Source: a virus
IMG/VR virus record: IMGVR_UViG_3300017759_003727
Location: 18,911-82,910 of that record
DNA length: 64,000 bases
Strand: one strand, 5' to 3'
Positions 1 to 62,589 of the stretch are shown here, piece after piece. Numbering within the stretch: the stretch's first letter is position 1; every line of letters begins with the position of its first letter. Made by a program: the position numbers and the translations under genes. Below the pieces are notes generated by a model. It saw only the letters and a program-made list of their open reading frames with translations, did no database searches and had not been told where the DNA came from.

Positions 1-205
1 CTAATCCACCGTTATTGTGCGCGCTTAATTGATAAAGGTTTGGATCAAAGCGAATAGCATCAAAACCATTCAAACAATACATTAATTCTTTGTCGTCCAT
101 TAATTTAGAAAAATTGATTTTTATGCAATTTTTTAAGCTTTGTTTATTATATGTCTTGGACAGCTGATATATTTGATTATCTACTTTTATTTTAGTGTAA
201 TACAT
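1..205 (-). CDS. Partial hypothetical protein, N-terminal 68 codons
   Basis: An open frame on the - strand runs from an ATG at 205 (MYYTKIKVDNQ...) off the left edge of the window. A second ATG lies at 100 (MDDKELMYCLNG). Codon use resembles the neighbouring AT-rich genes, and the only competing + frame is an 18-codon fragment ending at 57. The start lies back to back with tail gene L at 209, with no room for a leader on either side. No family is recognised. It could be another tail gene, given the context. The visible part is short, so it may be spurious. Confidence 0.5.
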   Translation of the reverse strand, partial: MYYTKIKVDNQIYQLSKTYNKQSLKNCIKINFSKLMDDKELMYCLNGFDAIRFDPNLYQLSAHNNGGL

Positions 206-1562: not shown

Positions 1563-2136
1563 AGTTATTCTACACGGTGATCTGTGTGAAGATTTTGGTT
1601 ACTCCGAACTTCAACTCAAGGTAAAAACAAAAAAAGAAGTAATGAAAGCTTTGTGCGCAAACTTTCCAGGTTTTAGAACTAAATTACAGAGAAAAGCTCA
1701 AGACGGTTTATTTTACAGGATGGTTGATGAAGAAGGAAATATTTGCGAAGAAATTAAAGACTACGATACAAAGTGCCCCGAAGAAATTCATTTAGTACCA
1801 AGTATAATTGGTAGTGGGCCAGTTGGTTTGATTTTAGCGGGTGGTGGCCTAAGTTATTTTGGCGGTTATACCGCTCTTGCTGGAAGTTTTTTGGGTAAAA
1901 TGTTATTCAACATTGGTGTGTCTTTATTGATTCAAGGTATACAGCTTTTGTTAGCTGGAGAACAACAAGGTCCCACACAAGAAGTAGCCGTAGAAACACA
2001 GAGTTTTATATTTCAAAATACTAACAATACAGTGGTTCAAGGTTTTGGTATACCAATTATCTATGGACAAATAAGACTTGGAAGCAAAGTGATTTCCACA
2101 AACCTAGAATCAGTAGACATAAGTGTAGAAGCATGA
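1555..2136 (+). CDS. Tail assembly protein I-like
   Basis: A 193-residue protein matching the lambda tail assembly protein I family by position and architecture. The N-terminal half looks like a ubiquitin-type beta-grasp domain (VKVILHGDLCEDFG...). A glycine-rich hydrophobic stretch (VGLILAGGGLSYFGGYTALAG) follows, and the C-terminus has VQGFGIPIIYGQIRLGSKVIS, the conserved end of the family. An AAAGGA Shine-Dalgarno sequence precedes the ATG. It overlaps K by 8 bases and J by 4 (ATGA). It acts in tail-tip assembly and, in lambda, is not retained in the mature virion. Confidence 0.8.
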   Translation: MVKVILHGDLCEDFGYSELQLKVKTKKEVMKALCANFPGFRTKLQRKAQDGLFYRMVDEEGNICEEIKDYDTKCPEEIHLVPSIIGSGPVGLILAGGGLSYFGGYTALAGSFLGKMLFNIGVSLLIQGIQLLLAGEQQGPTQEVAVETQSFIFQNTNNTVVQGFGIPIIYGQIRLGSKVISTNLESVDISVEA

Positions 2137-5100
2137 GTAATTATAAAAAATATTTTTCAAAAACTAATCAGAAATTAAAAATTGCTGGTGCTGGTAGTAA
2201 AGCTGAACCTAGTAATTTAATACCTAATAAACGTGCTTTCGTAAAAGAAAGTTATAGTCTGTCAAGTACAGTTGATTTGGTTTCTGAAGGGCCAATAGGT
2301 GGTTTAGTTGATGTAGATGGAAGATATTTGGCAGGAGATGAAAACGATATAATAGAAACAGTTCCATCTGAAGATAATGTTTTAAGTTCTAAGGAAGGTT
2401 TTATATTAAAAGGTTTTCCAGATAAATTTTTAAATCAAACTTACTTACCAAAGGTTTCAAATATCCCAGGAAGTTATAAAAAGCTTAGGTCTAAAAAATC
2501 CTACAGAACTATAATTATAGTTGATTTAAGTTCGAACTCTGAAAGACATTTAGATGCGATAAAAGAAAAAGTACAAACAGTAATTGAGTCAACCAACTTA
2601 ATGAAAGCGGCTGGATATCAAATAGACTTTACATTAGTTGGGTTAGGAGATCAAGGGCAAGTAATACGGCAAGAATTGGTTGGTTTTGGTCATTATACGT
2701 CACTTATTCCAGTATTTGGAAGCTTCCAATATTTAGATGATATATCTAGAACAACTAATCCAGAAAAGATTTATAACTCAATAAGTAACGCTACAACCCT
2801 AGTAGAAGGAGATGGCAAAAGTAGAACGTCATATACTGAAGCGATAGCGAATATATTAGATGAACAAGGAGACAGAGGGTATTATCCAAATGCCTTTATT
2901 GTTATTGGGGCTAATCCAGATACTACTACCAACAAATCGGTTGCACTAGAAAGAATAGAAGAATTAGCGCAAACAGCAGCGGTTAAGAATGCGACTAATC
3001 GAGGCATAGTAAATGTGTCAGATCCGACGCAGGGGAACACAATTCTTACATTTGGATTTAGGCTTCATGTTTTGACAATTGACATTGGTAATGGAGAGAT
3101 GGAAAGATCTCTAAGGGCTGTAAAAAATGCTTCGCTTAATATTGAAACAAAAGAATTTCAGTCAGATAAGACTGTATTAGATGTTTTTAAATATATACAA
3201 CCAAACTTATTAGGCACTTCGTCATCTAAAGTATATAGAGGTTTTGAGGGAGCTAAAAATCAGTTACATCCAAAAGATGTTCCACAACTAGCTTTTGACG
3301 GATCAAATTGGGCTATAACAAATCTTGAGGGTAGTGTTATATATTATACTTGTCCAGAGGACCGTTTTTCATATAATCTTTTTTATGGGTTCGACATACC
3401 TTGGACAGCATCTGAACAAGCTGCTGGACCAGCTGGGGAAACATATTTGTTAAATGGTTTAACGCTCGACAAAGGTGTTTATTTTGACGAATTACAATTA
3501 AAAACTGATAGAGGCAAACAATTCGCAAAATACAAAATAGAACAAAAGCTAGGAAGCGAAAACCAAACCGCATCAAAAATAGTGCCTAAAGCTGTAAGAT
3601 TACACACTAAGAATTTTAAATTATTGGGGCCTTACGATAGGGACATTAATGGAGCTAGAGCGGGAACGGGAAGCGCTGATATAAGAAAATTTAATAGTGA
3701 TACTGCAGGAGGTAGCAGAAACTTCACCGATTGGCAATCATTTGATCCAGCGCAAACAGATCCAAGTATTTTTTATCATGAAGTGACAGATGAAGACGTA
3801 GATTCTTTGGATCTTGAAATACAAATATCTCAATTATCAGATACTCAAAGTTTTTCTTCAAAGGGTGATAATAAAAGTGGAAGAGCAACAATGGGTAGAA
3901 ATCTAGCTACCACAATAAAATACTCTATTACTTTAGAACTTGTTTTTAGAGATGGAACAACTGAAAATAGATTATTAAATTTAAAAATACCACTTAGCGA
4001 TAAAAAAGGTTTTCAAACCGTTAATACCGAATCAGCTAGTATAATTTCCGTAAAGGGAATTATAACAGCACCTTATTCTTTCACCATAAAAGATATTGTA
4101 TTACCAGAAAAAACAGATGATATTGTGAAAAGAGTACTTAAGGTTGAAAAACTAACTTATGAAACTAATTCGAACCTTATAAATAGATTGACTCACATAA
4201 GTTCTGTTGCAGAAAGAAGTAAATATAGTTTTAATTACCCTTATTCAGCTAGTATTGTAACATCTTTAGACGCAAGAGCTTTTGACGATATGCCCAATAG
4301 AACTTTTAAACTTAAGGGCAAAAAAATATTAATACCTTCAAATTATTTTCCAACTGATGAAGCTGGATTGGATAGAAGATTTTCTGAAGATTCGTCTACT
4401 GCTGGAAATCTTATATATGATGGGTTATGGGATGGAACTTTCAGATATGATTGGTCAGACAATCCAGCTTGGATTTTATTTGATTTATTAAATAACTTTA
4501 GATATGGAACCGCTTTATACAATAGAGATTTAGAAAATATAGATATATGGTCTTTGTATGAAATAGGAAGATACTGCGACGCTGTGGACGATTATGGGAA
4601 GTTTGAGGGCTTGACTGATGGTTTCGGAGGTTTGGAACCAAGGTTTTCATACAACCATAAAATAGATGGAGATAATGAAGCATTTACGATTATAAAAGAC
4701 ATCGCTAAATTCATGCGTTGCTTAGTATACTATAAAGATTCTCAAGTACAATTCAAAATAGATAAGCCAGAACAAGCATCTATGCTATTCAATAATTTAA
4801 ATGTAGTAGATGGATTGTTTAATTATGCAGACGTTGTAAAAAACTCTAGAACAAGCTCTGTAGATGTAAGTTTTTTAGATAAGAAAAATAATTATAGACC
4901 AAGAACAGAATATGCAGAAGATCGAGACGCCATAGAAAGATATGGTTACTTAAAGCAATATATTGATGGCTTTGGACATACTTCAAGAGCTTCAGCTCAA
5001 AGGAGTGCAAGAAATATAATTTTTGACTCAACTCATGCAACTGAGACTGTTTCTTTTGCTGCTGGATTTGAAGCTGCTTTATTAGCTCCAGGAGATATAA

Positions 5101-8100
5101 TAAAAATTGATGATGAGATGAAATCTTTGGAAAAGAATTACGGTATGTTTTTAACACAAACAGGAGCTAATTCTGAAACTCATAAATACCCCAATGGAGC
5201 TTATGGGCCAACTGGACTTATAGTCGATCATCAAATAGGCAGTCAAACTGGATTAATTCCAACTGGAGAAAACAATGAAAGCTATATATATCTTTATAAC
5301 GCGTCGAACTCTACAAGTTTAAGAGAACTTTATGCCAAAAAAGATAATGCAAGGGTCACTTATACCGATGAAGAAATTTCTGGATTAAAAAAACCTAAAA
5401 TAAGTAAATTACAAATTGATACTGGCGCGCATCCTTTCCAAAATTTAGGAGACGATAGTATATTAATTAAATTAAACCCTAATCAAAACTTTCCACAAGA
5501 TGCTGGGTATTTTCCATCAATGACCCCATATTCGGTTGACATAACTGGAAGAGCGGAAAAACAATATAGGGTATTAAGTGTTAAAGAAAATGAGGACTCT
5601 ACATATGCAGTTGGGGCCATCATTTATCATAGCGGTAAATATGATGTAATTGAAAAAAATGTAAACTTTGACCCCACTCAAGACAATTTTGATGTATCAT
5701 TGCAAAGCAATGTATCTACTTTACCCCAAATACCCGCTTCAATAACCGCCAGAACAGATCTTAGTGGAGTGAATAAATTTGGAGCGATTGATCATTTTTT
5801 TGATATTGTAAATAGCGACCCAGTTCAAGCAGATCAATATAAAATATTTTTAACTTATCCAAGCAATAGAAGTATAGTTTTACCTAGATTACTAAGAACT
5901 GGCTTAGGAACTAATGAAGGAAATACATCAGATAATGGAAAAACACAACTTGCTATTACTGGAGAACTTATTAATCAATTTGGAACTTATGAATTAGAAA
6001 TTTTCTCTGAGTTTACTAAATACTACACCAAGAGATCTACTAATTCTAGATCTGTAGAATTTACTGTTACAGCGGACGATCTAGGATTAGGAAATTTTGG
6101 TAAGGTTGTAACTTTCGATGGCATTACCAGCAAAAATCAAGATGATGTCTTTACTGAAAATTTCGCCAAACAATTAACGGGGACTTCTTTAGTTGGAGAA
6201 TCAGATAGCCAAGGTTCAAGATTAACGAGAAATGATAATGATGATAGTTTTTTAGATTTGTCACTGCAATACGTAGATTTTGTTGGAAATAATGCATTAG
6301 ACCAAGGATACAACTTGGCTTCTGAATTTCATTTTTATGACAGTAATCCTGGATCTGGCATGTTCAACGCAGTAGAATTAGCTTTTACTGGAAAAATTGG
6401 TATGGATAAATTTGTTGTTAATAAAAGCAACAATCATGAAAGCCTTCAAGTTTCTGTTACTGGATTAAAGAGTGGTTTTGATTTTGAAGAAGCAAATTCT
6501 ACATGTCTGAATAATAAATTTGGCATACAGACAAGTGGTTTCAGTGGTGCAAGAGGTGCGGATCGCTATGGTACTGGATACCATGTTAAATTTGCAGAAC
6601 AATTTAAAGGTTCACCAGTTGTGTTTATACAACAGGTGATGAAAAGCGGTATATCTTTTACTGATTATGATAATTTAGATACTTATAATATAACACCTTC
6701 TGTTGTCCGCGCAAATACCACGGGATTTATTCATAATACTATGTCAAATGACGTGTCATTTTTTAATTATTTTGCTTTTGAAACTGGAGATTTTAGAATA
6801 AACAATCAAAGATTTAAGGTAAGGAGGGTAGAAAAATCAGATTACGCTGATTTACAAGTGGATTTTGCGGATTCATTTACAGGTCAAAGAAATGAAAATG
6901 TTGTAAACAAAAAAAATCCAATAGTATTCGTACAAAAACAAGCAAATCAAAATGAAATTAGTTTTGTTGGAGGGACAATTGCACAAGTTTTGAATGGGAC
7001 TAACAGCGGCTTTAGTCTTAGGGCAACAAATATTTATGGTTGTTCAGATACTGGTGATTATGGATACTTAGCTATAGAACAAACAAATGATAATGTAAAC
7101 GAATTCAATTTCCAAGTAATTGATGATGACAAAACACAGTTCACTGGAGGAGACATATTTTTAACTGATGGATTGCTTTCTCCTTATAACTCTGGCATAG
7201 AAAATATAAATTATACAGATTTTGGAAGTGGAACATTCAATTATAGGGCATCGCATTTTTATCAAGATGGTTCTCAAAAAATATCTCAACCTGGAGATAA
7301 ATTTGATTACTATCAAGTTGATTTTTTAGCCCAAAATGATGGTTTTGTTGGTGACACTTCTACACACACTCGATTTGAAACTCAAGCTGCTGTTGTAGAT
7401 GGCGGAAACAAAACATCTGGTAATTGGGTAAGATATAGTGATGTTGGGGCATATAATAATACTGGAATTTTTGCAACTGGTTTGGATGCTGAGGGAGATA
7501 ATGTTAAAATTCACTTTAATCAAAACACCTTACATAGTAGCGGAAATTTAAATATAGGGAAAAAAGGATTTTCTGTTTTAGGCTGGTTCCAATTTAAAGA
7601 AGATTCAGATCAATGGGCTACTTTAATAGATAATTGGCATGGCACTGGATTTGTTTGGAGACAAAGTGGTGGATACAACCAAATATTTGCAGGTACAGGA
7701 AACAGTCAATCTAATGTTGTTAATGTAGCAGAAAATTTAAATGACGGGAAAACCCACTCAATTTTTGTAAGCGTTGGTAATAATGGAGCTGTCACTTCTT
7801 GGGTAGATGGTGAGAGAACGACAGGTACTAGTGTTGACCCTTGGTCAGAGACACCAAGTGGATTAAATAATTTAGGTGTTTGTAGCTTTTTGGGGTCTCA
7901 AGGTAATGGAGGAAACGCTGGATGCCCGTTAACTGGACAAAGCTTGAGTAGTGGATTTGCCCAAAATTTCATGTTCATAAAAGATGGAATAATGGACGAT
8001 AACTCTGCGAAGCTTTATTCTGTAAATCCATATAAGGCATATATTGCAACTGACAATTGGGCAATTCTAGACTTTCACTTTGGCACAGGTGCGCTTGCTA

Positions 8101-9560
8101 CCGATAAAGGAGGTCTGAATGTTGTACCGACCTATGGTTATAGTATTTCTGGAGGAATAACAGGCAACGTGATTAAAACTTTACCCATCAACGATGGAAA
8201 CACAGTAAATCAAAATATAAACTACACAACAGGCGTTAGGGATTATAATGTATTTATGATCGGAGGAGTTTCTGGAGATGTCAATTTCTCAACTAATCAT
8301 AACGGCATAAGTGGAAACAAATATACGGAAGATTTAATTTTAAATATGAGTCCTTTTAGAGATGGTATTGGGTTTGATGCTTTTGTATCAGATATTGATA
8401 ACTTTGCTGATTTTGAAAGTGGAGAACATAGAGAGGAGATAATCATACCAGAAGGAAAAATTAGTGGTGTTCCTCTTTATAGTGGATTCAATGCGGGACT
8501 TGAGTTTGGTGAAGAATTTGAAAACGAATCTGTCGTAACAATAGATTTTCAACATTCTAATCCTTTAATTTATAGATATCCAACGGGAATAATCTTTACA
8601 GGGTTCAGTCATTACACAGGTGTAGATAGTAACGGTAACTTTATTGATGGAGAAACTGGTTGGTACCTTACTAATTCTGGAGGAAATGTAGATGACCCAA
8701 CGGATTATGGAAATGTAGCGATTACTACTTTGGGAGAAACCACAGCAACTACTAGCTCTACTACAATGGAAGGATTTTTTAGTGGACACCAAAATATAGT
8801 CTCAGTAAAATTCTTTACTGGTAGTCAAAGTGGTTTTACTTTTAATCCTTATTCTGATGATTTCGCATTTGAAAGAGATGTTAATTTAAGAATTGAAACT
8901 GGTTTTTCTGGAGGAAATGGCGGGCTTGGAATATATCAAAGAGAATTTATATTTACTAACAACGATATTGATTCGAACACTGGAATGATTTTTTATTCAG
9001 CTATACCATATTCACAATTAGGGCCGATTCTTAATATGCAAACTGGACAACTAGCTTCTCATAAAAATTTAAATAATCCATTTGGAAGCTTTAGGTTGGA
9101 CGAACATGTATTTAGTGGTAGAATGTTTACTGGATTTCCAGATTTTAATGATGACCACCCAAATGTAGAACCAACTAATTCAAAAACATCTGCATTAGTT
9201 AGTCAAGGTAATTTAAAACTTACTGGAGAATGTCATATTTATATTTCAAGAGAATCTGGATTATCTGATTTGCAATTTAATGATGAAACATTTGTTGTCT
9301 CACATACTGCTGGTGAAGTAGAATTCAGAATAGATACTGGAATAGCAGATGGAATAGGTATGGATGACGAATGGTCAATGACAATTGATCAAAGAACAAG
9401 TAGCTCTGTAAGGGTAAGAGACGCTCAAAATAATGCTACAGTAGCTACTGCTGCAACATCAGCAGGTGCGGTTAGTAAAAGTAATAGCAATGAAGCTATG
9501 ATAACTGTAACTTACGACAAGACTTCGAACAAAATTTTATTTAGAGAATTTAGTTCTTAA
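2133..9560 (+). CDS. Giant host-specificity protein J with an N-terminal vWA-like domain and lectin-like repeats
   Basis: The central tail-tip and receptor-binding protein, 2475 residues against about 1130 in lambda. J signatures are SEGPIGGLVD near residue 50, NPAWILFDLL near 776 and DGFGGLEPRF near 828. Between them, residues about 120-316 read as a von Willebrand A-like domain: a hydrophobic strand ending in DLSSNS (near-MIDAS), then SYTEAIANIL, AFIVIG and a final VLTIDIG strand. The C-terminal half holds two H-type-lectin-like repeats (about 1486-1650) and a LamG/concanavalin-like domain (about 1805-1950). It is rich in SGF/TGF turns. It overlaps the convergent acetyltransferase by 11 bases. 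Confidence 0.85.
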   Translation: MSNYKKYFSKTNQKLKIAGAGSKAEPSNLIPNKRAFVKESYSLSSTVDLVSEGPIGGLVDVDGRYLAGDENDIIETVPSEDNVLSSKEGFILKGFPDKFLNQTYLPKVSNIPGSYKKLRSKKSYRTIIIVDLSSNSERHLDAIKEKVQTVIESTNLMKAAGYQIDFTLVGLGDQGQVIRQELVGFGHYTSLIPVFGSFQYLDDISRTTNPEKIYNSISNATTLVEGDGKSRTSYTEAIANILDEQGDRGYYPNAFIVIGANPDTTTNKSVALERIEELAQTAAVKNATNRGIVNVSDPTQGNTILTFGFRLHVLTIDIGNGEMERSLRAVKNASLNIETKEFQSDKTVLDVFKYIQPNLLGTSSSKVYRGFEGAKNQLHPKDVPQLAFDGSNWAITNLEGSVIYYTCPEDRFSYNLFYGFDIPWTASEQAAGPAGETYLLNGLTLDKGVYFDELQLKTDRGKQFAKYKIEQKLGSENQTASKIVPKAVRLHTKNFKLLGPYDRDINGARAGTGSADIRKFNSDTAGGSRNFTDWQSFDPAQTDPSIFYHEVTDEDVDSLDLEIQISQLSDTQSFSSKGDNKSGRATMGRNLATTIKYSITLELVFRDGTTENRLLNLKIPLSDKKGFQTVNTESASIISVKGIITAPYSFTIKDIVLPEKTDDIVKRVLKVEKLTYETNSNLINRLTHISSVAERSKYSFNYPYSASIVTSLDARAFDDMPNRTFKLKGKKILIPSNYFPTDEAGLDRRFSEDSSTAGNLIYDGLWDGTFRYDWSDNPAWILFDLLNNFRYGTALYNRDLENIDIWSLYEIGRYCDAVDDYGKFEGLTDGFGGLEPRFSYNHKIDGDNEAFTIIKDIAKFMRCLVYYKDSQVQFKIDKPEQASMLFNNLNVVDGLFNYADVVKNSRTSSVDVSFLDKKNNYRPRTEYAEDRDAIERYGYLKQYIDGFGHTSRASAQRSARNIIFDSTHATETVSFAAGFEAALLAPGDIIKIDDEMKSLEKNYGMFLTQTGANSETHKYPNGAYGPTGLIVDHQIGSQTGLIPTGENNESYIYLYNASNSTSLRELYAKKDNARVTYTDEEISGLKKPKISKLQIDTGAHPFQNLGDDSILIKLNPNQNFPQDAGYFPSMTPYSVDITGRAEKQYRVLSVKENEDSTYAVGAIIYHSGKYDVIEKNVNFDPTQDNFDVSLQSNVSTLPQIPASITARTDLSGVNKFGAIDHFFDIVNSDPVQADQYKIFLTYPSNRSIVLPRLLRTGLGTNEGNTSDNGKTQLAITGELINQFGTYELEIFSEFTKYYTKRSTNSRSVEFTVTADDLGLGNFGKVVTFDGITSKNQDDVFTENFAKQLTGTSLVGESDSQGSRLTRNDNDDSFLDLSLQYVDFVGNNALDQGYNLASEFHFYDSNPGSGMFNAVELAFTGKIGMDKFVVNKSNNHESLQVSVTGLKSGFDFEEANSTCLNNKFGIQTSGFSGARGADRYGTGYHVKFAEQFKGSPVVFIQQVMKSGISFTDYDNLDTYNITPSVVRANTTGFIHNTMSNDVSFFNYFAFETGDFRINNQRFKVRRVEKSDYADLQVDFADSFTGQRNENVVNKKNPIVFVQKQANQNEISFVGGTIAQVLNGTNSGFSLRATNIYGCSDTGDYGYLAIEQTNDNVNEFNFQVIDDDKTQFTGGDIFLTDGLLSPYNSGIENINYTDFGSGTFNYRASHFYQDGSQKISQPGDKFDYYQVDFLAQNDGFVGDTSTHTRFETQAAVVDGGNKTSGNWVRYSDVGAYNNTGIFATGLDAEGDNVKIHFNQNTLHSSGNLNIGKKGFSVLGWFQFKEDSDQWATLIDNWHGTGFVWRQSGGYNQIFAGTGNSQSNVVNVAENLNDGKTHSIFVSVGNNGAVTSWVDGERTTGTSVDPWSETPSGLNNLGVCSFLGSQGNGGNAGCPLTGQSLSSGFAQNFMFIKDGIMDDNSAKLYSVNPYKAYIATDNWAILDFHFGTGALATDKGGLNVVPTYGYSISGGITGNVIKTLPINDGNTVNQNINYTTGVRDYNVFMIGGVSGDVNFSTNHNGISGNKYTEDLILNMSPFRDGIGFDAFVSDIDNFADFESGEHREEIIIPEGKISGVPLYSGFNAGLEFGEEFENESVVTIDFQHSNPLIYRYPTGIIFTGFSHYTGVDSNGNFIDGETGWYLTNSGGNVDDPTDYGNVAITTLGETTATTSSTTMEGFFSGHQNIVSVKFFTGSQSGFTFNPYSDDFAFERDVNLRIETGFSGGNGGLGIYQREFIFTNNDIDSNTGMIFYSAIPYSQLGPILNMQTGQLASHKNLNNPFGSFRLDEHVFSGRMFTGFPDFNDDHPNVEPTNSKTSALVSQGNLKLTGECHIYISRESGLSDLQFNDETFVVSHTAGEVEFRIDTGIADGIGMDDEWSMTIDQRTSSSVRVRDAQNNATVATAATSAGAVSKSNSNEAMITVTYDKTSNKILFREFSS

Positions 9561-14311: not shown

Positions 14312-14325
14312 GTGTAAAATTCTAT
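14312..14325 (+). promoter_or_regulatory. Late-type promoter GTGTAA-N8-ATG
   Basis: GTGTAA at 14312-14317 is followed by exactly 8 bases and then ATG 14326. The AAAAAGTGTAA context and the ATGCC start are shared with the copy at 62117. It decides the start: an in-frame TTG at 14290 would place the motif inside the coding region. Confidence 0.6.
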
Positions 14326-14961: not shown

Positions 14962-16100
14962 GCCTCTTCTATTTCTTCATATTGTCGTTCCTTTTCAACA
15001 TAATTTGGGAACATATACATAAACATCTGCTGAAAAGATTCAGTATGTTCTGGATGCATTTCTAACAGAAATGGCTTTACTTGTTTGTATATTTCGTAAT
15101 TTTGATAAAATTTTTCTAAATCCGAAAGCCCCTCTGTTGCAATTAAAAACAAATGCCTACTAATTAAATCATTGGCTATAATTAGTGCGTTTACTTTTTC
15201 TTTTTCAAAATACTTAGCTATAAAAGTTTTTTCATTAAAAGAAGAAACAATGTCAGAAGATTTAAAATATTTTTTTAAAAAATTTATTAAATAGTTTTTT
15301 GCGTAATTAAAATTAAGATTATATGCCGTTTTTTGTAAACTAGTAAATAAATCCAAGCAATAAGAATTTTCAAAGTTAATAATTTTTATCATATCGTCTC
15401 TATATAGAATAGAAGATTTTTTAATATCAAAATGACTAAAAACATTAGTGCTTACTGTATAGTTCTGATCTATAAATTCTTTGTTTTTCTTAAGTATATT
15501 CTCTATATCAAAAGCGCTAAATCCAAAATATGTAACCATATTCGATTCAATATCAATATCTTCTTCGATAAAGCCAACAACTGATGCATGAATATCATGC
15601 ATATCTGATAAAGTTGGCAAATTATCAACACTTGATTCATGTATTGTATCTAAGGTATTACAAAAAGTGCCTAGGTTATAATTTAAATCATCACTATCAA
15701 AATCTTCAAAAGAATAACCATTTTCAAATGTTGTACAAAGATAATGAGGTAATTCTCCTGTGTTTGATGATATAACTGTTGGGGAAACCAATGAAAGACC
15801 ACTAACTCCTGTTGGCAAATTGCTTATTGCAATTTTTTCCATTCCAATGCTATCGGTACCAGTAATATAGCTAATTTTGATCATTTTTCTGCTATTTTCA
15901 AAATCTAAAGCGAAGGTATCATAAAAAAAGCTTTGATGAACTTGTTTCATATTTAATATTTCACCAAAACCACTTATTAAAGGATCTTCTGTATGTATTG
16001 TTTGAAGAAGTCCAGATTCTATAGAATCAACAGCCACAAAGTCTTTTTTCACTCCTGCTGATATTAGAGGCGAGTTGTACGCAATTTCCTTAAAGTCCAT
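14958..16100 (-). CDS. APH/choline-kinase-like protein with degenerate catalytic motifs
   Basis: A 380-residue protein whose middle resembles aminoglycoside phosphotransferase/choline-kinase folds: LGTFCNTLDTIHE, then FSHFDIKKSSIL, then KIINFENSYCLDL. These occupy the places of the family's HxDxxxxN loop and the metal-binding (I)DFE. The catalytic-loop Asn is replaced by Ser and the metal-binding Asp by Asn. The protein may therefore be a pseudokinase or bind a ligand without catalysis. It starts 8 bases after a GTGTAA motif that itself follows a terminator, so it is a single late transcription unit. It could alternatively be a structural protein with chance resemblance. Confidence 0.65.
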   Translation of the reverse strand: MDFKEIAYNSPLISAGVKKDFVAVDSIESGLLQTIHTEDPLISGFGEILNMKQVHQSFFYDTFALDFENSRKMIKISYITGTDSIGMEKIAISNLPTGVSGLSLVSPTVISSNTGELPHYLCTTFENGYSFEDFDSDDLNYNLGTFCNTLDTIHESSVDNLPTLSDMHDIHASVVGFIEEDIDIESNMVTYFGFSAFDIENILKKNKEFIDQNYTVSTNVFSHFDIKKSSILYRDDMIKIINFENSYCLDLFTSLQKTAYNLNFNYAKNYLINFLKKYFKSSDIVSSFNEKTFIAKYFEKEKVNALIIANDLISRHLFLIATEGLSDLEKFYQNYEIYKQVKPFLLEMHPEHTESFQQMFMYMFPNYVEKERQYEEIEEA

Positions 16101-16114
16101 AGAATATATTACAC
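16101..16114 (-). promoter_or_regulatory. Late-type promoter GTGTAA-N8-ATG
   Basis: On the - strand, GTGTAA (16109-16114) is followed by 8 bases and then ATG 16100. It abuts the T-tract of the terminator at 16115-16140, so transcription must restart here, which supports a promoter rather than a translation signal. Confidence 0.65.
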
Positions 16115-16140
16115 AAAAAAGGCGGTATTTCTACCGCCTT
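16115..16140 (-). terminator. Rho-independent terminator after the 69-residue gene
   Basis: A perfect 9-bp stem, AAGGCGGTA/TACCGCCTT, with a 4-base loop is followed on the - strand by six T. It ends the leftward replication transcript just before a late-type promoter. Confidence 0.85.
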
Positions 16141-17734: not shown

Positions 17735-20307
17735 TTAATTTCTGATAATCTTGTGTAAATTTTTTCGTCAAGAATTGTAATTTTATCACCAAAGATTATG
17801 TCTTCACCTTTAGCTCCGTAAACAAAGACAATTTGTTCTTCTTTGGGTTTTTTGCCTCCATTGTTTAAATACTCTGAAAGAGTCGCTGATCTACGATTAT
17901 CCATAAGCATAAAATTAACCGTGCCGTAATCATCTTGTATTTCAATTCTCATGTATTTATTGCCAGCACGACTTGTTCTAGATACACAGTCTTTAACTAC
18001 TCCTACGAATTTAACTTTGTCATTTTGTGGTATTGATTTTAATTCTAAACTGTCAACTAGATTGTCTGTGTCTTGAAACACATCTTTGATATCGCTAGAA
18101 TGACTATACCCTAAATATTTTCTTTCAAAGAACCAGTTGGCAAAAACTAAATGATTTTTATTTTTGTCATAAATAGATTTGTATCCGTCATACTTTTTCT
18201 TAAAAGTTTGGAATCTAGATTCCTTCATTAAAGGCTTCCCGTCATCAGCAGGTAAAGACTCTTTTTTAACATAAGCGATAGAATTTAAAATATCATAATT
18301 AAACTTCTCACCTAATGCTATAAAGTTGCGTTTTTCTCTTTCTGTAAGAATGTTGAATGCTTGAGCTTCTAAAACTAATCGACAGCGATTTGGTATTCTG
18401 TTTTGTGAATCACAAAATGTATCAACCATTCCACCTTGAATCAAACCAGACAAAACGCCAATGTTGATCCCAGACTGTTTAGCTGATATAAAGATGTCGT
18501 ATTTGGTTTGCTCAATCAATTCTGATTTTCTAAAATCTACTACATTCTCTAATGTTTTTTCAGAAACACCTTTGATACTATTGATGCCGTAACGGATGTT
18601 TTTACCTTCGATTGAAAACTCTACATCTGATTTTGAGAGGTCGGGTGGCAAAAGCTTCATATCAAAAAGACATAACTCTTGATTTATTAGAGCAATTTCT
18701 GAGTGAGAATCTGGCTCATGCTTAGTCATCTTTAATAAACTTAAAAAGAACTCTTTAGGGTGATTAAATTTAAGGTAAGTCGTAATTGCAGCTAGTGTGG
18801 CATAACTAATTGAGTGCGACTTATTAAATGAATAGTTGGCTGAATCTTCAGCGACCTTCCAAAGAACATCTCCGACTTGTTTACTTAAATTATTTTCTTC
18901 AATCTTTTTCTCAATCTTAGCTTTCCATATAGGCATTTGATCTACTTTTTTCTTACCGACAATACGCCTAAGTTGTTCCGCTTCATCAAGAGTGAAACCA
19001 ACCTTAACAGCCATTTTCATTAACTGTTCTTGATAGAGAGGGATACCGCCAGTATAACTGAGGATATCATCATAATACTCATTAACGGACTGAAAGACAC
19101 TAGTTTTAATATAAGATGCATAGGTATCCAGATAATCCAAAGCTCCAGGCCTAGCAATAGCCACAACAGAAGAAAGCTCGTCCAGATTTCTTGGAGAGAC
19201 TTTTTTGCAGACTTTAAAATTTGTGTCCGCTTCAATTTGGAAGAGACCTTTCGGTGCCTCAATGAATTTGAAGTTTTCATATATGCTTGGTGATTCAACA
19301 TCTATATCATTCATATCCAAACCTAACTGTTGGCAAGTATCATGCACAACAGAAAGTGTTCTTAGACCTAAGATGTCAAATTTTACCATCAACGAAGCGA
19401 CGTCATTCATATCATAACCCGATACATAATTTCCGTCATTTGTTTTTTGCATTGGCATAACCTCTTCAATATTGTAGAAGCTAATAGCAATGCCCGATGG
19501 GTGAACGCCAGTGTTCTTATTTAATCCTTCTAGTTTTCTGGCAATTTCAAAAATCCTTGGATTGTCGTCACAAAACTTTTTTAGTTTTTCGCTTTCGTCA
19601 TAAGCTTTATCAAGCTTAAACACCTTTCCGAACTGTTTAGGTATTGAGGCGCTAATATCATTAACTTCTTCCTCTGACATTGAACCGACAATTTTACCGC
19701 ACTCTTTTACACATAATTTACTACTTAATGTATTTAAAGTTAAAATTTTACAAGTTCTACCTTTATGCTGATCCTCAATATATTTAATAACTTCTTGTCT
19801 ACGATCATAGCTAATATCGTTATCGACATCAGCAAGTAATGAACCATCTAGGTATGTAATACCGTCAACAATAGTTTTCTTAGCACGACTTTTGGATACG
19901 AATCTCTCAAAGAATAAATCATATTTAATTGGATCGATATTGGTGACTTTAAGTAAATAAAGAACTAAAGAGCCAGCAGCCGAACCACGACCTGGGCCAG
20001 TAGGTATTTCGTTTTCATGGCAATAATTAAGAATATCCCAATTTAAAAGAATATAGTCAATAAACCCCAGTTCTTTCAAAATAGAAAGCTCCATTTTGAC
20101 TCGATCGTAATATTCTTTTTTATTTTCTAATTTATCAATACCTCTTTGCTCGACGCCACGAAGGCATAATGCCCTCAGAAGGTCGAAGTTGGAAGATTGA
20201 GGGTCGAGGTCTAATTCAGAATAAACTCGTCTTTTAACCTCAATTTCGGGCAATCTAACACCAACAGGCATTGGTTGTTTAAATGATTCTAAATTTCTAA
20301 TTCCCAT
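17731..20307 (-). CDS. dnaE: DNA polymerase III alpha subunit, polymerase core without PHP domain
   Basis: The replicative C-family DNA polymerase, 858 residues. The nucleotidyltransferase core begins almost at once: GPGRGSAAGSLVLYLL near residue 104 and the catalytic aspartates in ADVDND near 158. Finger and helix-hairpin regions follow (QEQLMKMAVKVGF, DSANYSFNKSHSISYA). An OB domain (TSRAGNKYMRIEIQDDYG) lies near the C-terminus. Cellular DnaE is about 1160 residues because an N-terminal PHP domain precedes the core; that domain is encoded separately at 20927-21604, with the DnaQ exonuclease gene in between. The start overlaps dnaQ by 19 bases. Confidence 0.92.
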   Translation of the reverse strand: MGIRNLESFKQPMPVGVRLPEIEVKRRVYSELDLDPQSSNFDLLRALCLRGVEQRGIDKLENKKEYYDRVKMELSILKELGFIDYILLNWDILNYCHENEIPTGPGRGSAAGSLVLYLLKVTNIDPIKYDLFFERFVSKSRAKKTIVDGITYLDGSLLADVDNDISYDRRQEVIKYIEDQHKGRTCKILTLNTLSSKLCVKECGKIVGSMSEEEVNDISASIPKQFGKVFKLDKAYDESEKLKKFCDDNPRIFEIARKLEGLNKNTGVHPSGIAISFYNIEEVMPMQKTNDGNYVSGYDMNDVASLMVKFDILGLRTLSVVHDTCQQLGLDMNDIDVESPSIYENFKFIEAPKGLFQIEADTNFKVCKKVSPRNLDELSSVVAIARPGALDYLDTYASYIKTSVFQSVNEYYDDILSYTGGIPLYQEQLMKMAVKVGFTLDEAEQLRRIVGKKKVDQMPIWKAKIEKKIEENNLSKQVGDVLWKVAEDSANYSFNKSHSISYATLAAITTYLKFNHPKEFFLSLLKMTKHEPDSHSEIALINQELCLFDMKLLPPDLSKSDVEFSIEGKNIRYGINSIKGVSEKTLENVVDFRKSELIEQTKYDIFISAKQSGINIGVLSGLIQGGMVDTFCDSQNRIPNRCRLVLEAQAFNILTEREKRNFIALGEKFNYDILNSIAYVKKESLPADDGKPLMKESRFQTFKKKYDGYKSIYDKNKNHLVFANWFFERKYLGYSHSSDIKDVFQDTDNLVDSLELKSIPQNDKVKFVGVVKDCVSRTSRAGNKYMRIEIQDDYGTVNFMLMDNRRSATLSEYLNNGGKKPKEEQIVFVYGAKGEDIIFGDKITILDEKIYTRLSEIK

Positions 20308-25943: not shown

Positions 25944-25957
25944 ATCTATATTTACAC
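25944..25957 (-). promoter_or_regulatory. Late-type promoter GTGTAA-N8-ATG
   Basis: On the - strand GTGTAA (25952-25957) followed by 8 bases and ATG 25943. It fills nearly all of the 15-base gap after the upstream nuclease gene. Confidence 0.65.
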
Positions 25958-43152: not shown

Positions 43153-43166
43153 GGTATTATTTACAC
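43153..43166 (-). promoter_or_regulatory. Late-type promoter GTGTAA-N8-ATG
   Basis: On the - strand GTGTAA (43161-43166), then 8 bases and ATG 43152. The motif overlaps the last codon and stop of the upstream gene (GTG TAA). Confidence 0.65.
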
Positions 43167-43751: not shown

Positions 43752-44038
43752 TAGCCCCAAAGATTATAAGCTATAATACCTGCAATTGCAGTAAGCAAAC
43801 CGCTAATAAAAATCCAAGATAGTTTATTAAATGTAGTCATGAAAGCCTTTGTTTCTCCAACAGTTCTTTCCATTTCCATCATTCTTGAATTCATATCATC
43901 TATTTTTTTGAACAATACATCTGTAAGTGTGCCTAATTGAATTAGTTTTTCTTCAGCTCTAGCGATTGAAATAACAGCATCAGATAGTTTGTCTATCTTC
44001 TCCTCCATTCTCGTTAATCTATCTTCATTTTCGGACAT
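43751..44038 (-). CDS. XhlA-like coiled-coil protein with a C-terminal membrane anchor
   Basis: A 95-residue protein. Residues about 1-68 form a heptad-rich coiled coil (LTRMEEKIDKLSDAVISIA...). Residues about 72-92 form one membrane helix (LSWIFISGLLTAIAGIIAY). This architecture resembles XhlA/hemolysin-associated phage proteins, which cooperate with holins. No endolysin is seen next to it. The late-type motif in the 18-base gap after nrdA supports late expression, as expected for lysis or virion genes. Confidence 0.68.
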   Translation of the reverse strand: MSENEDRLTRMEEKIDKLSDAVISIARAEEKLIQLGTLTDVLFKKIDDMNSRMMEMERTVGETKAFMTTFNKLSWIFISGLLTAIAGIIAYNLWG

Positions 44039-44053
44039 TAAAATGTTTTACAC
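44039..44053 (-). promoter_or_regulatory. Late-type promoter GTGTAA-N9-ATG
   Basis: On the - strand GTGTAA (44048-44053), 9 bases, then ATG 44038. It lies between the stop of the ribonucleotide reductase gene and the XhlA-like gene, marking a change from early to late expression on the same strand. Confidence 0.6.
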
Positions 44054-44056
44054 TTA

Positions 44057-45727
44057 TTAACCCTCGCATGATGAACATTCTAATAAATTTCTACTTAATT
44101 CTTGAGATGGATTTGTTCCTCTTTGATAGTACAAAGTTTTAACACCCTGTTCCCATGCAAAGATCATAAGTTGACTCACGTCTTTAGGGGAAGATTTTGG
44201 ATGCACCATGATATTCAAGCTCTGAGATTGGTCAATAAACTTTTGACGTTGTGCGGCTTGAATTATAACTTCTTTTTGGCTAATTTCACCAAAAGTTTTA
44301 TATACAGCTTTTTCTTCATCCGTTAAAAAATCTAAATGTTGTACTGATCCACCTTTTACTAGAATTGATTTCCATATTTGTGGAGTATTTTTTTCTTTTT
44401 CTTCTAATAAAGACTCCAAATAAGGGTTCTTATATGTGAATTTTCCTTTAGCTAAGTCTTTAACAAAGTAATTAGAATTTAAGGGCTCGATACTTGGAGA
44501 AACTTGACCTAAAATAAAAGAGCTTGAAGTTGTTGGAGCAATAGCCATTGTGGTTACATTTCTAACACCATATCCTTTTAATAAAGAAGGTTCGCCATAA
44601 ACTTTAGCGAGTTCTTTTGTCGCATATTGAGTTTTTTCTTGAATTGTTTTATGAATTTCTGAATTTAATAATTTAGCTTCAAAAGATTCAAAGGCAATTG
44701 ATTTTGATTGTAATAAAGAATGCCAACCTAGCACGCCTATTCCTAAAGCTCTTTGATTTTTAGCAAAGTTTCTAGGGGCTTCCATAAATGGTAAATTTTT
44801 ACATTTATCTATAAATTCTGTCATAACTGCATCTAGAAAATATGTTAATATTTCTGGTGCGTCTGTATCTTTCCAGTCGTCATAATGAAGTAAATTCATT
44901 GAAGATAGATTACAAACAAAAGACTCATCCTTGTTTGAATGCAAAGCTATTTCAGAACAAAGATTACTAGCATATATTTCTAAGCCTTTATCTTGATATA
45001 CTGGAGGCGCATTTCTGTTCATGGCATTTTTAAAGAAGACGTAAGGATAACCGCTTTCAAATCTTTTTTTGATTATCGATCCCCAAATTTTTCTTTTATC
45101 TTTATCTCCAGCAAGCATTTCTTTCATCCATGTATCGCTAATGGTTACCCCGATAGAAAGATTTTGAATAGCGTTACCGTCACTTCTTATCTGTAAAAAT
45201 TCTAATATATCTGGATGTTCTACTGGTAAATAAGCAGCGAAACTACCTCTGCGGACATTGCTTTGAGAGACGACATTTGCCACCGTTTCAAAAATTTCCA
45301 GAAAATGAACTGGGCCATTTGATTTACCACCACTACTTATTTCGGCACCTCTTTCTCGAAGCTCTCCAAAATATCCAGAAGTGCCTCCACCGTTTTTAGT
45401 CATCATACCTACTTCAGTGCTTTTCTTTAATATTTCTTCCATTTTATCTTCCACAAAGGAACCAAAGCAAGAAATAGGGAGACCTCTGTCTTTACCAAAA
45501 TTAGCCCAAATTGGAGATGATAAAGAATACCACCCCTTGGCCATATAGCTTTGAAACTTTTCAGAAAACCCAGGAATAGATAAAAGGCTTTGTGCTTTGT
45601 CAGCAATAACTTTTATTCTTTCTTCTGGAGTCTCTCCTTCTTCTAGGTAACCTCTTTTTAGGAAAGTTCTAGAATCTTTGTTTAACCAATAAAAATCTTT
45701 CATATTAAAATAAATCGTCTTCGTCAA
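44057..45727 (-). CDS. nrdA: Class I ribonucleotide reductase large subunit, compact
   Basis: A 556-residue catalytic subunit reducing NDPs to dNDPs. LPISCFGSF and NLCSEI carry the redox-active and active-site cysteines; CNLSSMNLL, MAIAPTTSSSFILG (phosphate binding) and the tyrosines in TLYYQRGTN follow in family order. The C-terminus ends in ECSSCEG, the CxxC shuttle for thioredoxin/glutaredoxin. The N-terminal ATP-cone (allosteric activity site) is missing, so the enzyme may escape dATP inhibition (established for other cone-less enzymes). It overlaps nrdB by 23 bases. Confidence 0.92.
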   Translation of the reverse strand: MTKTIYFNMKDFYWLNKDSRTFLKRGYLEEGETPEERIKVIADKAQSLLSIPGFSEKFQSYMAKGWYSLSSPIWANFGKDRGLPISCFGSFVEDKMEEILKKSTEVGMMTKNGGGTSGYFGELRERGAEISSGGKSNGPVHFLEIFETVANVVSQSNVRRGSFAAYLPVEHPDILEFLQIRSDGNAIQNLSIGVTISDTWMKEMLAGDKDKRKIWGSIIKKRFESGYPYVFFKNAMNRNAPPVYQDKGLEIYASNLCSEIALHSNKDESFVCNLSSMNLLHYDDWKDTDAPEILTYFLDAVMTEFIDKCKNLPFMEAPRNFAKNQRALGIGVLGWHSLLQSKSIAFESFEAKLLNSEIHKTIQEKTQYATKELAKVYGEPSLLKGYGVRNVTTMAIAPTTSSSFILGQVSPSIEPLNSNYFVKDLAKGKFTYKNPYLESLLEEKEKNTPQIWKSILVKGGSVQHLDFLTDEEKAVYKTFGEISQKEVIIQAAQRQKFIDQSQSLNIMVHPKSSPKDVSQLMIFAWEQGVKTLYYQRGTNPSQELSRNLLECSSCEG

Positions 45728-46676: not shown

Positions 46677-46686
46677 ATGTAATAAG

Positions 46687-46714
46687 AATTTACACCGTGA
46701 TTTGAATTAGTCAA
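46687..46714 (-). promoter_or_regulatory. Early sigma-70 promoter for nrdBA
   Basis: On the - strand TTGACT (46709-46714), 16 bases, TAAATT (46687-46692), 10 bases to ATG 46676. A GTGTAA (46690-46695) overlaps the -10 but is 13 bases from the ATG, so it may be incidental or give late read-through. Confidence 0.6.
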
Positions 46715-46750
46715 GCTTTTTAGGTAAAAAATAAAAAATATTTTTTTTAC

Positions 46751-46868: not shown

Positions 46869-46897
46869 TTGACATTCTTTCAGAAGTGTCATACATT
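46869..46897 (+). promoter_or_regulatory. Early sigma-70 promoter P2 for the + operon
   Basis: TTGACA (46869-46874), 17 bases, TACATT (46892-46897), then exactly 7 bases to ATG 46905, the same distance as at 21604 and 28622. It predicts a leaderless mRNA. Confidence 0.7.
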
Positions 46898-46904
46898 AAT
46901 TTTT

Positions 46905-47198
46905 ATGTTAATTAAATTAGATGGAGAAGACTTAAATTTCTACTTATGCAGCAGTTCCGATTGGAGTATAGTTGTCTTAGCAGAAGATGAGAGAACTGCA
47001 GCTTCAGTATCTTTAAAGAAGATTATATCTGAACTGGAATTAGATGCAAATGTTTCAGCAGCTATTAGAGTAAAGAAAATAGATGAAAGACTTGAAAATT
47101 CAGATTTTCTAATTAGAATGGATGAAACGCTTTCCGACATAGGAATGCATAAGGAATCAAAAGCATTAAGAGAGATATTAGATAATGATAGGTATTAG
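46905..47198 (+). CDS. Hypothetical early protein
   Basis: A 97-residue acidic protein (MLIKLDGEDLNFYLC...), alternating strand and helix (VSLKKIISELELDANVS, then KALREILDNDRY). No family is recognised. ATG 46905 is chosen because it lies 7 bases after P2; the longer frame from 46770 would translate the AT-rich leader into an improbable Tyr/Ile-rich peptide. It overlaps the dNMP kinase gene by 14 bases and leads the early + operon. Confidence 0.7.
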   Translation: MLIKLDGEDLNFYLCSSSDWSIVVLAEDERTAASVSLKKIISELELDANVSAAIRVKKIDERLENSDFLIRMDETLSDIGMHKESKALREILDNDRY

Positions 47199-47751
47199 TG
47201 GAATAGCCAGGTCTGGAAAAGACACATTAGCAAAAAGCTTTAAAAGAATAATTGAGCAAAAATTAGAACTTGATGTAGAAATCATATCACTAGCTAATCA
47301 GCTCAAAGAAGACTTAGATGATTTAATTATTAAAAATTTTGGATTTTCTGCTTTTTCGGATAATACGAAAGAAAAGAATCTAATAAGGCCTATTCTTGTT
47401 TCTTATGGAGAGTGTATGAAAGAAAAATTCGGAAACCATGTTTGGGTTGAAAAATTAATGGACAAAAGAGATAAAGATAAGTTTACAATTGTACCAGATA
47501 TTAGATTTGATTTTGAAGCTATATTTTTTGCAGAAAAATTAAACGCAGAAATAATTCATATTTCTTTAGAGGGCAATGATTATGTTAACGATATAGAGAA
47601 GGTGAATGATCCACTTGTTCAAGAATTATCAAATATAAAACATACTTGGCCAGTCTTACACCCAGATCAAGTTGAATTATGTGATGCTCATGCAGATATA
47701 TTATTACAAATGATGCCAGATTATAAAATAGAAAAATGGAAGACGATATAA
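47185..47751 (+). CDS. Deoxynucleoside monophosphate kinase-like protein
   Basis: A 188-residue P-loop kinase. The N-terminal IGISGIARSGKDTLAKSF is the Walker A of the phage dNMP kinase family (T4 gp1 type). TIVPDIRFDFEAIFFAE carries the conserved D-x-R of the substrate-binding region, and IIHISLEGND follows. It converts dNMPs, recycled from host DNA or made de novo, to dNDPs. It lies in one operon with the sigma factor and SSB and opposite nrdBA, forming a nucleotide-supply group. Confidence 0.85.
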   Translation: MIGISGIARSGKDTLAKSFKRIIEQKLELDVEIISLANQLKEDLDDLIIKNFGFSAFSDNTKEKNLIRPILVSYGECMKEKFGNHVWVEKLMDKRDKDKFTIVPDIRFDFEAIFFAEKLNAEIIHISLEGNDYVNDIEKVNDPLVQELSNIKHTWPVLHPDQVELCDAHADILLQMMPDYKIEKWKTI

Positions 47752-48317
47752 ATTTAATAAATCAAGTAAAATCTAAAAAAGATAACGATTCCCTAAGGGA
47801 ATTAATCAATAGACATTCTGGTATATATGTTGATATGGTCAACAAGTACATGCCAGAATCTATTGAAGGTAATCATAGGCAAGATATATTAGATGAAAAA
47901 AATTATTCAATATACGATGCTGTTATAAAATTTGATGAATCAAAAAACGCTAAACTAAGTACATATGTAGGCAACATAGCAAAATGGAAGTGTTTAAATA
48001 TTTATAATAAAAATAAAAAATTTCCACATAACTCTTTATTTAATGATGATAAACCTTCTGATAGAATTGATCACGAAAACTTCATCGTTCAACCAGACAT
48101 AAGTAAAATAGAAAACACAGAAAATTTAAACAAAATATATAAATTTGTAAGTAAAGCAAAAGACCCAAGAGTTAAAAAGATATTTAAAATGCGTTATTCT
48201 AAAGGCAATAAAACAACACCTTGGAAAAAAATTGCGAAAAAGCTTGACTTATCAATTCAAGGATGTATAAATATACACAATAACTATTTAAAGGAGATCA
48301 AAAAATATGTTCAATAA
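47736..48317 (+). CDS. Phage-encoded RNA polymerase sigma factor
   Basis: A 193-residue small sigma factor. Region 2 spans about residues 12-105: LRELINRHSGIYVDMVNKY, then YSIYDAVIKFDESKNAKLSTYVG followed by NIAKWKCLN. The latter is the typical F-D-x-(S/K)-x-(A)-x-(F/L)-S-T-Y core of region 2.2-2.4. Region 4, about 145-190, has RVKKIFKMRYSKG and the helix-turn-helix TTPWKKIAKKLDLSIQGCIN. There is no region 1.1 or 3, as in group 4-like and phage late sigma factors. It probably redirects host RNA polymerase to the GTGTAA promoters (inference). It overlaps the kinase and ssb genes. Confidence 0.8.
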   Translation: MEDDINLINQVKSKKDNDSLRELINRHSGIYVDMVNKYMPESIEGNHRQDILDEKNYSIYDAVIKFDESKNAKLSTYVGNIAKWKCLNIYNKNKKFPHNSLFNDDKPSDRIDHENFIVQPDISKIENTENLNKIYKFVSKAKDPRVKKIFKMRYSKGNKTTPWKKIAKKLDLSIQGCINIHNNYLKEIKKYVQ

Positions 48318-48669
48318 ATCAATAATCATGGGTAATCTCGCAAGAGATCCAGACAATAAGAAGGTTGGAGACAACCAAGTGACACGGTTAGTAGTAGCCG
48401 TTAATGATGTAGTGAAGAAAGATAAAGCTCATTACATTGATGTAGAAACGTGGAACAAGACCGCTGAAAACTGCGCTAAATACTTAGCGAAGGGGCGTAA
48501 GGTTCTAGTAGAGGGTCGTTTATTCCAAGATATTTGGGAAAAAGACGGTAAGAAAAATTCTAAAATTTACATTAAGGCTGACAATGTTCAGTTTCTTGGT
48601 GGAAAACAAGATGGTGAGGCAAAGCAGCAAGCTGCGCCAGTTGGAGCGGATGAAGATATTCCATTCTAA
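48307..48669 (+). CDS. ssb: Single-stranded DNA-binding protein
   Basis: A 120-residue OB-fold SSB. NKSIIMGNLARDPDNKK is the family N-terminus. HYIDVETWNKTAENCAKYLAKG is the second conserved block, with Trp for base stacking, and VLVEGRLF follows. The C-terminal acidic tip DEDIPF recruits replication partners, as in bacterial SSB. AAGGAG about 8 bases before ATG 48307 gives one of the better ribosome-binding sites of the window. It overlaps the sigma gene by 11 bases. Confidence 0.93.
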   Translation: MFNKSIIMGNLARDPDNKKVGDNQVTRLVVAVNDVVKKDKAHYIDVETWNKTAENCAKYLAKGRKVLVEGRLFQDIWEKDGKKNSKIYIKADNVQFLGGKQDGEAKQQAAPVGADEDIPF

Positions 48670-60050: not shown

Positions 60051-60065
60051 ATATGATTATTACAC
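60051..60065 (-). promoter_or_regulatory. Late-type promoter GTGTAA-N9-ATG (tape measure)
   Basis: On the - strand GTGTAA (60060-60065), 9 bases, then ATG 60050. The motif fills most of the 15-base gap after the upstream gene. Confidence 0.62.
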
Positions 60066-62105: not shown

Positions 62106-62122
62106 TTACACAAAAAGTGTAA
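62106..62122. promoter_or_regulatory. Divergent late-type promoter, palindrome TTACAC-N5-GTGTAA
   Basis: Two GTGTAA motifs face outward in one 17-base palindrome. The right arm (62117-62122) is 8 bases before ATG 62131 on the + strand. The left arm (62106-62111, read on the - strand) is 19 bases before ATG 62086. It decides the + start and rejects an upstream in-frame ATG at 62077. Confidence 0.65.
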
Positions 62123-62130
62123 AAATATAC

Positions 62131-62589
62131 ATGCCAACATCATTAATATCAGATACACAAAAAAATACCATCAAAGCTATCATTGATGATATACATGAAA
62201 CATTCGCTAGAAACATAACAGTTTTCGAAGAAGGTGAAAGAGTTTTGATAGCAGCAAGCTCAGAATACAATGGAATATATGGCAAAACTGGAGGAGGCAC
62301 TACTAGCGTTAGTCGTACTGTGGTTAGCCATACTATAAAAGCCAGAATAAAATATATTGATGCTAAAGACTCAACTTTATCAGACGGTTCAATAGATTCA
62401 CAATTAGACATCGATTTAATCGATGGTTCAGTAAAAATTACCGTTTCGTTAGCTGATTCTGCAATTCTGAAAGAAGCAAAAAGATGTGAGTTTGAAGGAA
62501 GAAAATACGAAATCAACAGTAAAGGTAATCCAACTGGTATATTTGGACCTCAGTACGTACATTTCTACCTAAAACCCTTAGATGAATAA
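62131..62589 (+). CDS. Late structural-type protein, possible connector or neck protein
   Basis: A 152-residue, mostly beta protein: an N-terminal helix (KNTIKAIIDDIHETFARN), then strands including ITVFEEGERVLIAAS and VKITVSLADSAILK, ending VHFYLKPLDE. Size, fold impression and position before the next two genes fit a head-tail connector or neck protein (inference). No diagnostic motif is visible. The start at ATG 62131 follows GTGTAA by 8 bases. It is coupled to the next gene by TAATG. Confidence 0.65.
   Translation: MPTSLISDTQKNTIKAIIDDIHETFARNITVFEEGERVLIAASSEYNGIYGKTGGGTTSVSRTVVSHTIKARIKYIDAKDSTLSDGSIDSQLDIDLIDGSVKITVSLADSAILKEAKRCEFEGRKYEINSKGNPTGIFGPQYVHFYLKPLDE

Follow-up and report, generated by a model that had tools for sequence, protein, structure and literature searches.

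Placement of GTGTAA upstream of genes

The window, the whole 64,000-nucleotide stretch analysed here, runs from base 18911 to base 82910 of an uncultured virus record 82,910 bases long and carries the word GTGTAA shortly upstream of several start codons, which raises the question of whether this word is a promoter and, if so, what reads it. The original prediction had listed eight such sites, each 8-9 bases before an ATG, and direct reading of the sequence found all eight exactly where they had been placed (Table 1). The word itself is not over-represented in the window (27 copies vs. 30.5 expected from shuffles), and the claim therefore depends on position. For eight of the 27 copies, an ATG that begins a reading frame of at least 80 codons follows at a distance of 8-9 bases; in 20,000 circular shifts, the mean number was 0.14 and the highest 3. 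When every 6-mer was scored at each spacing from 0 to 39 before the called starts (163,840 cells), GTGTAA at a distance of 8 ranked first in the 82.9-kb record (before 7 of the 80 called starts, where 0.016 would be expected), in seven close contigs including that record (26 vs. 0.07) and in five more distant contigs (15 vs. 0.06). The enrichment at 8-9 bases expected of a genome-wide comparison with shuffled or shifted sequence was thus found, and its top rank in the record and in two sets of relatives upholds the claim of a functional site. Chance or an annotation artefact, with which the unelevated overall count would agree, is already refuted by these comparative counts (Poisson p about 5e-17 in the phage's own record and 1e-56 in the close group, with an independent peak in the distant groups), and we give it practically no weight.

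Forty-four related viral contigs were gathered through their DnaE-type polymerase; a search for relatives with the tape measure found none. Related phages had been expected to share the motif, and the box followed by ATG was present in 17 of 17 and 25 of 25 contigs, whereas the reversed control gave few. The box is kept in 5 of 7 orthologues of the tail L gene, 5 of 6 of the 380-aa gene at 16100 and 3 of 4 of the tape measure gene, and is also found in 2 of 4 orthologues, from relatives, of the 152-aa gene at 62131. The flanks of orthologous boxes are about 50% identical while the box is kept, the identity of the hexamer in this comparison resulting from how the pairs were selected. Box-bearing contigs number in the dozens, come from different metagenomes and range in GC content from 33 to 43%. 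For the first 25 kb of the window, no DNA match was found among 50,697 cultured-phage records.

The minus-strand box of the leftward tail operon, which stands back-to-back with the plus-strand box at 62117-62122, had been overlooked in the original prediction, as had another GTGTAA copy 14 bases ahead of the ATG at 1140. The tail module contains a 2,475-aa open reading frame at 2133-9560.

Table 1. Positions of GTGTAA boxes, promoters and related features in the window and in one relative
Feature	Position	Strand	Bases to ATG	ATG	Gene or remark
GTGTAA box	195..200	+	8	209	Minor tail protein L-like
GTGTAA box	14312..14317	+	8	14326	PHROG 'ferredoxin' family, 211 aa
GTGTAA box	16109..16114	-	8	16100	380 aa, function unknown
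Intrinsic-terminator-like hairpin GGCGGTAGAAATACCGCC plus TTTTTT	16115..16138	-			Abuts box 16109..16114; arrangement recurs in relatives
GTGTAA box	25952..25957	-	8	25943	87 aa
GTGTAA box	43161..43166	-	8	43152	329 aa, DUF5824
GTGTAA box	44048..44053	-	9	44038	95 aa
NrdB promoter region	46677-46720	-	13 (box)		TTGACT-16-TAAATT overlapping GTGTAA 46690..46695
Sigma70-type promoter	46869..46897	+	7	46905	TTGACA-17-TACATT; first gene of sigma A operon
Sigma A operon	46905..48669	+			97-aa gene, dNMP kinase, sigma A, SSB
Sigma A	47736-48317	+			193-aa sigma70-family protein; candidate reader of the box
GTGTAA box	60060..60065	-	9	60050	Tape measure; fills 15-base gap to upstream gene
Second GTGTAA box	62106..62111	-	19	62086	Leftward tail operon
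GTGTAA box	62117..62122	+	8	62131	152 aa
Sigma B operon (relative)	L324:9254-14782				Probably GTGTAA-driven; GAF-domain protein, sigma B, ERCC4-type nuclease, terminase large subunit

Anatomy of the box

In a census of 1,446 non-redundant starts from 19 contigs, the box was found 81, 42, 14 and 18 times at distances of 8, 9, 10 and 11 bases, respectively, and only 6 times at 0-7 bases; the reversed control word had no peak at 8-9. Such a hard edge at 8 bases fits a -10 element with the RNA start at or beside the ATG, because a -10 element closer than the start-site offset of about 7-8 bases would put the start inside the gene. From this spacing we infer that the transcript begins at, or adjoining, the ATG. 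The consensus of 154 non-redundant sites is W-rich, followed by GTGTA[A/T/c] and then an A/T-rich stretch up to the ATG. No -35 element was detectable in these 154 aligned sites (at most 0.07 bits in the columns upstream of the -10), and a Shine-Dalgarno-like word preceded 2 of 72 box genes vs. 4 of 72 in a control stretch, in agreement with the original prediction, which had noted that both elements were missing. The variants GTGTAT (11 vs. 0.19 expected) and GTGTAC (4 vs. 0.05 expected) are tolerated, and ATGTAA and GTATAA at distances of 8-9 were absent.

Divergent starts carry the box in 48 of 153 cases and same-strand starts in 105 of 1,283, giving an odds ratio of 5.1 (p 4e-14); the box is rare at abutting or overlapping genes. 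Same-strand gaps at box genes cluster at 14-30 bases, as expected from the earlier remark that several gaps are just long enough to hold the box. Several boxes come straight after a G+C-rich hairpin with a T-run, and relatives have analogous sites with other hairpins. Upstream of boxes, the reverse-complement word TACAC occurs 17 times where 3.3 would be expected.

The fixed distance to the start codon would also suit a translation signal in the mRNA, either an unusual ribosome-binding site or a GTG-TAA start-stop element. However, ATGTAA is missing at the equivalent spacing, the distance distribution is one-sided with a tail, and there is no anti-Shine-Dalgarno match; the excess at divergent starts, the scarcity at abutting or overlapping genes, the terminators directly upstream and the back-to-back boxes in divergent gaps likewise speak against it. 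Letter specificity and one-sided spacing led us to reject this interpretation, which we regard as very improbable. The reading as a single-box promoter is much the strongest: it is backed by the spacing edge, the divergent excess, the terminators, the conservation and the missing -35 element. Judging from these sequence features, GTGTAA is very probably a promoter. A conserved box in a fixed position with no -35 element is the pattern of single-box, -35-less phage late promoters, lateness here being deduced from gene function.

That deduction had been drawn from the tail L and tape measure genes downstream, which do support late expression. Some of the box genes are of unknown function, however, and 'middle/late' is therefore the safer label. 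The box precedes the terminase operon in relatives; sigma70-type promoters are found instead at DnaB and at the gene that opens the sigma A operon.

A second class of promoters

Promoters resembling TTGACA-16/18-TATAAT were found before 84 of 742 starts vs. about 23 in shuffled upstream sequences, and in most of them 6-10 bases separate the -10 element of the promoter from the ATG. Since these sigma70-type promoters also hug the starts, both classes look nearly leaderless. They precede a gene set distinct from the box genes, and it is this split that underlies the putative assignment of the two classes to early and later expression. The DnaB helicase has a sigma70-type promoter in 8 of 11 orthologues, as does the opening gene of the sigma A operon in 4 of 5. 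In one relative, a sigma70-type promoter lies immediately ahead of the ATG of an rIIA-like gene (L053:7390-9531, minus strand).

NrdB is the main gene in which the two classes are mixed. In the window, its sigma70-type promoter overlaps a GTGTAA box (Table 1), making NrdB a candidate for dual control. This box had also escaped the original prediction.

Candidate sigma factors

A single-subunit RNA polymerase (PF00940) was not found in 22 viral records, nor were the beta and beta-prime subunits (PF00562, PF00623) in 18 records, all of these being fragments. In the records searched, again fragments, there is thus no sign of the phage-encoded RNA polymerase that goes with late promoters of the T7 or phiKZ type.

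Small proteins of the sigma70 family are, however, encoded by large relatives. The candidate reader of the box is a protein encoded in the window, here called sigma A, that by the sequence of its region 2 is assigned to the sigma70 family. Sigma70_r2 was matched above cut-off in the copy of the relative G013 and weakly in the window copy. A profile of 56 sigma A sequences matched the solved structures of FliA, SigA and RpoD at about 1e-4, with FliA the best (E 8e-5), and the predicted model (pLDDT 81.7) had a SigH model (6e-5) and sigma32 (1e-4) near the top of its fold matches; global TM-scores were low, for which uncertainty in how the two domains are placed relative to each other is at least partly responsible. 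The C-terminus has an HTH-like motif and a fold alignment spanning whole sigma chains, with Pfam Sigma70_r4 unmatched. The most conserved stretch of the protein is this sigma4-type C-terminal helix, QGCIN[IL]H, even though the promoters have no detectable -35 element. Sigma A was found in 23 of 24 contigs, a sample subject to ascertainment bias.

The relatives encode a second sigma-like family, sigma B (212-275 aa), with a Cys-rich insert. Profile comparison detected no homology between sigma A and sigma B, and neither sigma gene had a good match among the 50,697 cultured-phage records. The 82.9-kb record, a fragment, yielded no sigma B. Its absence from some contigs is probably due to fragmentation, because the contigs lacking it also miss its gene block; for the same reason, co-occurrence does not separate sigma A from sigma B. 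The remaining starts contained no strong residual motif that could be a third promoter type for sigma B. A relative of sigma B (40% identity) is encoded by a metagenome-assembled contig, L281, binned as Flavobacteriaceae, the sole hint to the host and untrustworthy alone.

Together, these data are compatible with the following scheme. Early in infection, the host's RNA polymerase, carrying the housekeeping sigma, would transcribe early genes from the TTGACA-17-TATAAT promoters situated 6-10 bases from the ATG, and one of these promoters would drive the operon of the 97-aa gene, dNMP kinase, sigma A and SSB. Sigma A would then bind the host core enzyme, guide it to AGTGTAAW and melt the A/T-rich stretch past the box, with RNA starting at, or about 1-3 bases from, the A of the ATG. 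The products would be mRNAs with no leader or almost none, covering virion, packaging and other later genes; the sigma B operon would be among these. We put the probability of this model as a whole, in which GTGTAA is the -10 element of a -35-less middle/late promoter read by sigma A, at roughly 64%.

Sigma A is favoured because its own operon appears to be sigma70-driven and sigma B lies behind a GTGTAA promoter. Sigma B might nevertheless read the box, alone or with sigma A, in a self-reinforcing loop. It is conserved, has weak similarity to sigma regions 2 and 4, yields a model for which ECF sigma factors rank first, and is encoded in an operon that opens with a box promoter in several relatives. 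That very position, however, means that the cascade would need another starter; the model is of low confidence (mean pLDDT 74.5, pTM 0.37), and the gene is missing from the fragmentary record of the phage, so that we consider sigma B an unlikely reader, with perhaps a fifth of the weight. An alternative sigma factor of the host may also be proposed as the reader. Recurrence of the same box across dozens of contigs from various metagenomes, over a wide GC range and together with phage sigma genes, makes a shared host regulon less likely, and we rate this possibility lower than sigma B. Returning to sigma A, a fuller but doubtful extension of the scheme would be a two-sigma cascade, sigma A acting early and sigma B then being produced from promoters that sigma A serves, in which most promoters, of host or phage type, sit on the start codon. 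The result would be a largely leaderless programme with a -35-less sigma that nonetheless keeps its strongly conserved sigma4-like helix.

Comparison with known phage promoters

The T4 late box is TATAAATA, a sequence different from GTGTAA. T4 late transcription also needs gp33 and the gp45 clamp; here, a search limited to the bacterial-type beta clamp did not find its domain 3 above the family cut-off in 18 contigs. Sigma A and T4 gp55 have no detectable homology (hhalign probability 0.9 percent, E 0.059), and sigma A differs from gp55 in carrying a sigma4-like region. The GTGTAA and T4 late promoters are alike in having one box and no -35 element, the T4 gp55 promoters consisting of a single 8-bp box, with recognition confined to the downstream site as in extended -10 promoters (PMC2988020).

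A further parallel is the phage-made gp36 sigma of phiEco32, which directs the host core enzyme to TAATGTATA promoters and is also described for phage 7-11 (PMC4331800). Both systems have a short -10-like box containing TGTA and sigma70 early promoters, and in the phiEco32 record (L327:12888-14811), as here, a dNMP kinase gene is close to the sigma gene, at two genes' distance from gp36. However, the gp36 consensus differs from GTGTAA, box copies are fewer than here, and leaderless placement is not mentioned in the available text of PMC4331800. No homology between sigma A and gp36 was detectable (hhalign probability 0.1, E 0.43). The GTGTAA arrangement thus appears to work like the T4 late and phiEco32 gp36 promoters and, as far as sequence can tell, is not a member of either family.

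Host-type leaderless sigma70 promoters, which have the -10 a few bases before the ATG, are represented here by the second class; the GTGTAA class differs from them in lacking a -35 and in its -10 sequence. Short late-promoter motifs are also known from the large phages AR9 and phiKZ, which have a phage multisubunit RNA polymerase (PMC5312081), and AR9 transcripts have leaders of 26-491 nt. These phages differ from ours in that RNA polymerase large-subunit genes were not found in the records searched here.

A full-text literature search found no published GTGTAA phage late promoter. New here would be the box itself, the family of sigma factors, and the fact that promoters of either class are consistently placed on the start codon. 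In a family of large, uncultured bacterial viruses, the start of many later genes is probably marked by a six-letter box just upstream, whose reader the virus probably makes itself. Sequence alone may in this way reveal an entire layer of gene control in an unstudied group of viruses, and with it the transcription programme of large uncultured phages having no close relative among the cultured-phage records searched; a probable master regulator can be named, and temporal classes are suggested for many genes of unknown function. An apparently leaderless, -35-less class served by a compact new sigma also bears on how little DNA information sigma factors need.

Rfam and tRNA scans of the window gave no matches. 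Two relatives of approximately 205-211 kb each have a complete tmRNA (L075:15016-15391, minus strand; L100:9776-10138, plus strand), with long tags ending in EELALAA. In the G026 contig (L284), GTGTATTAAAAAGTGGAATG is repeated three times at 72-base spacing at 43935-44098.
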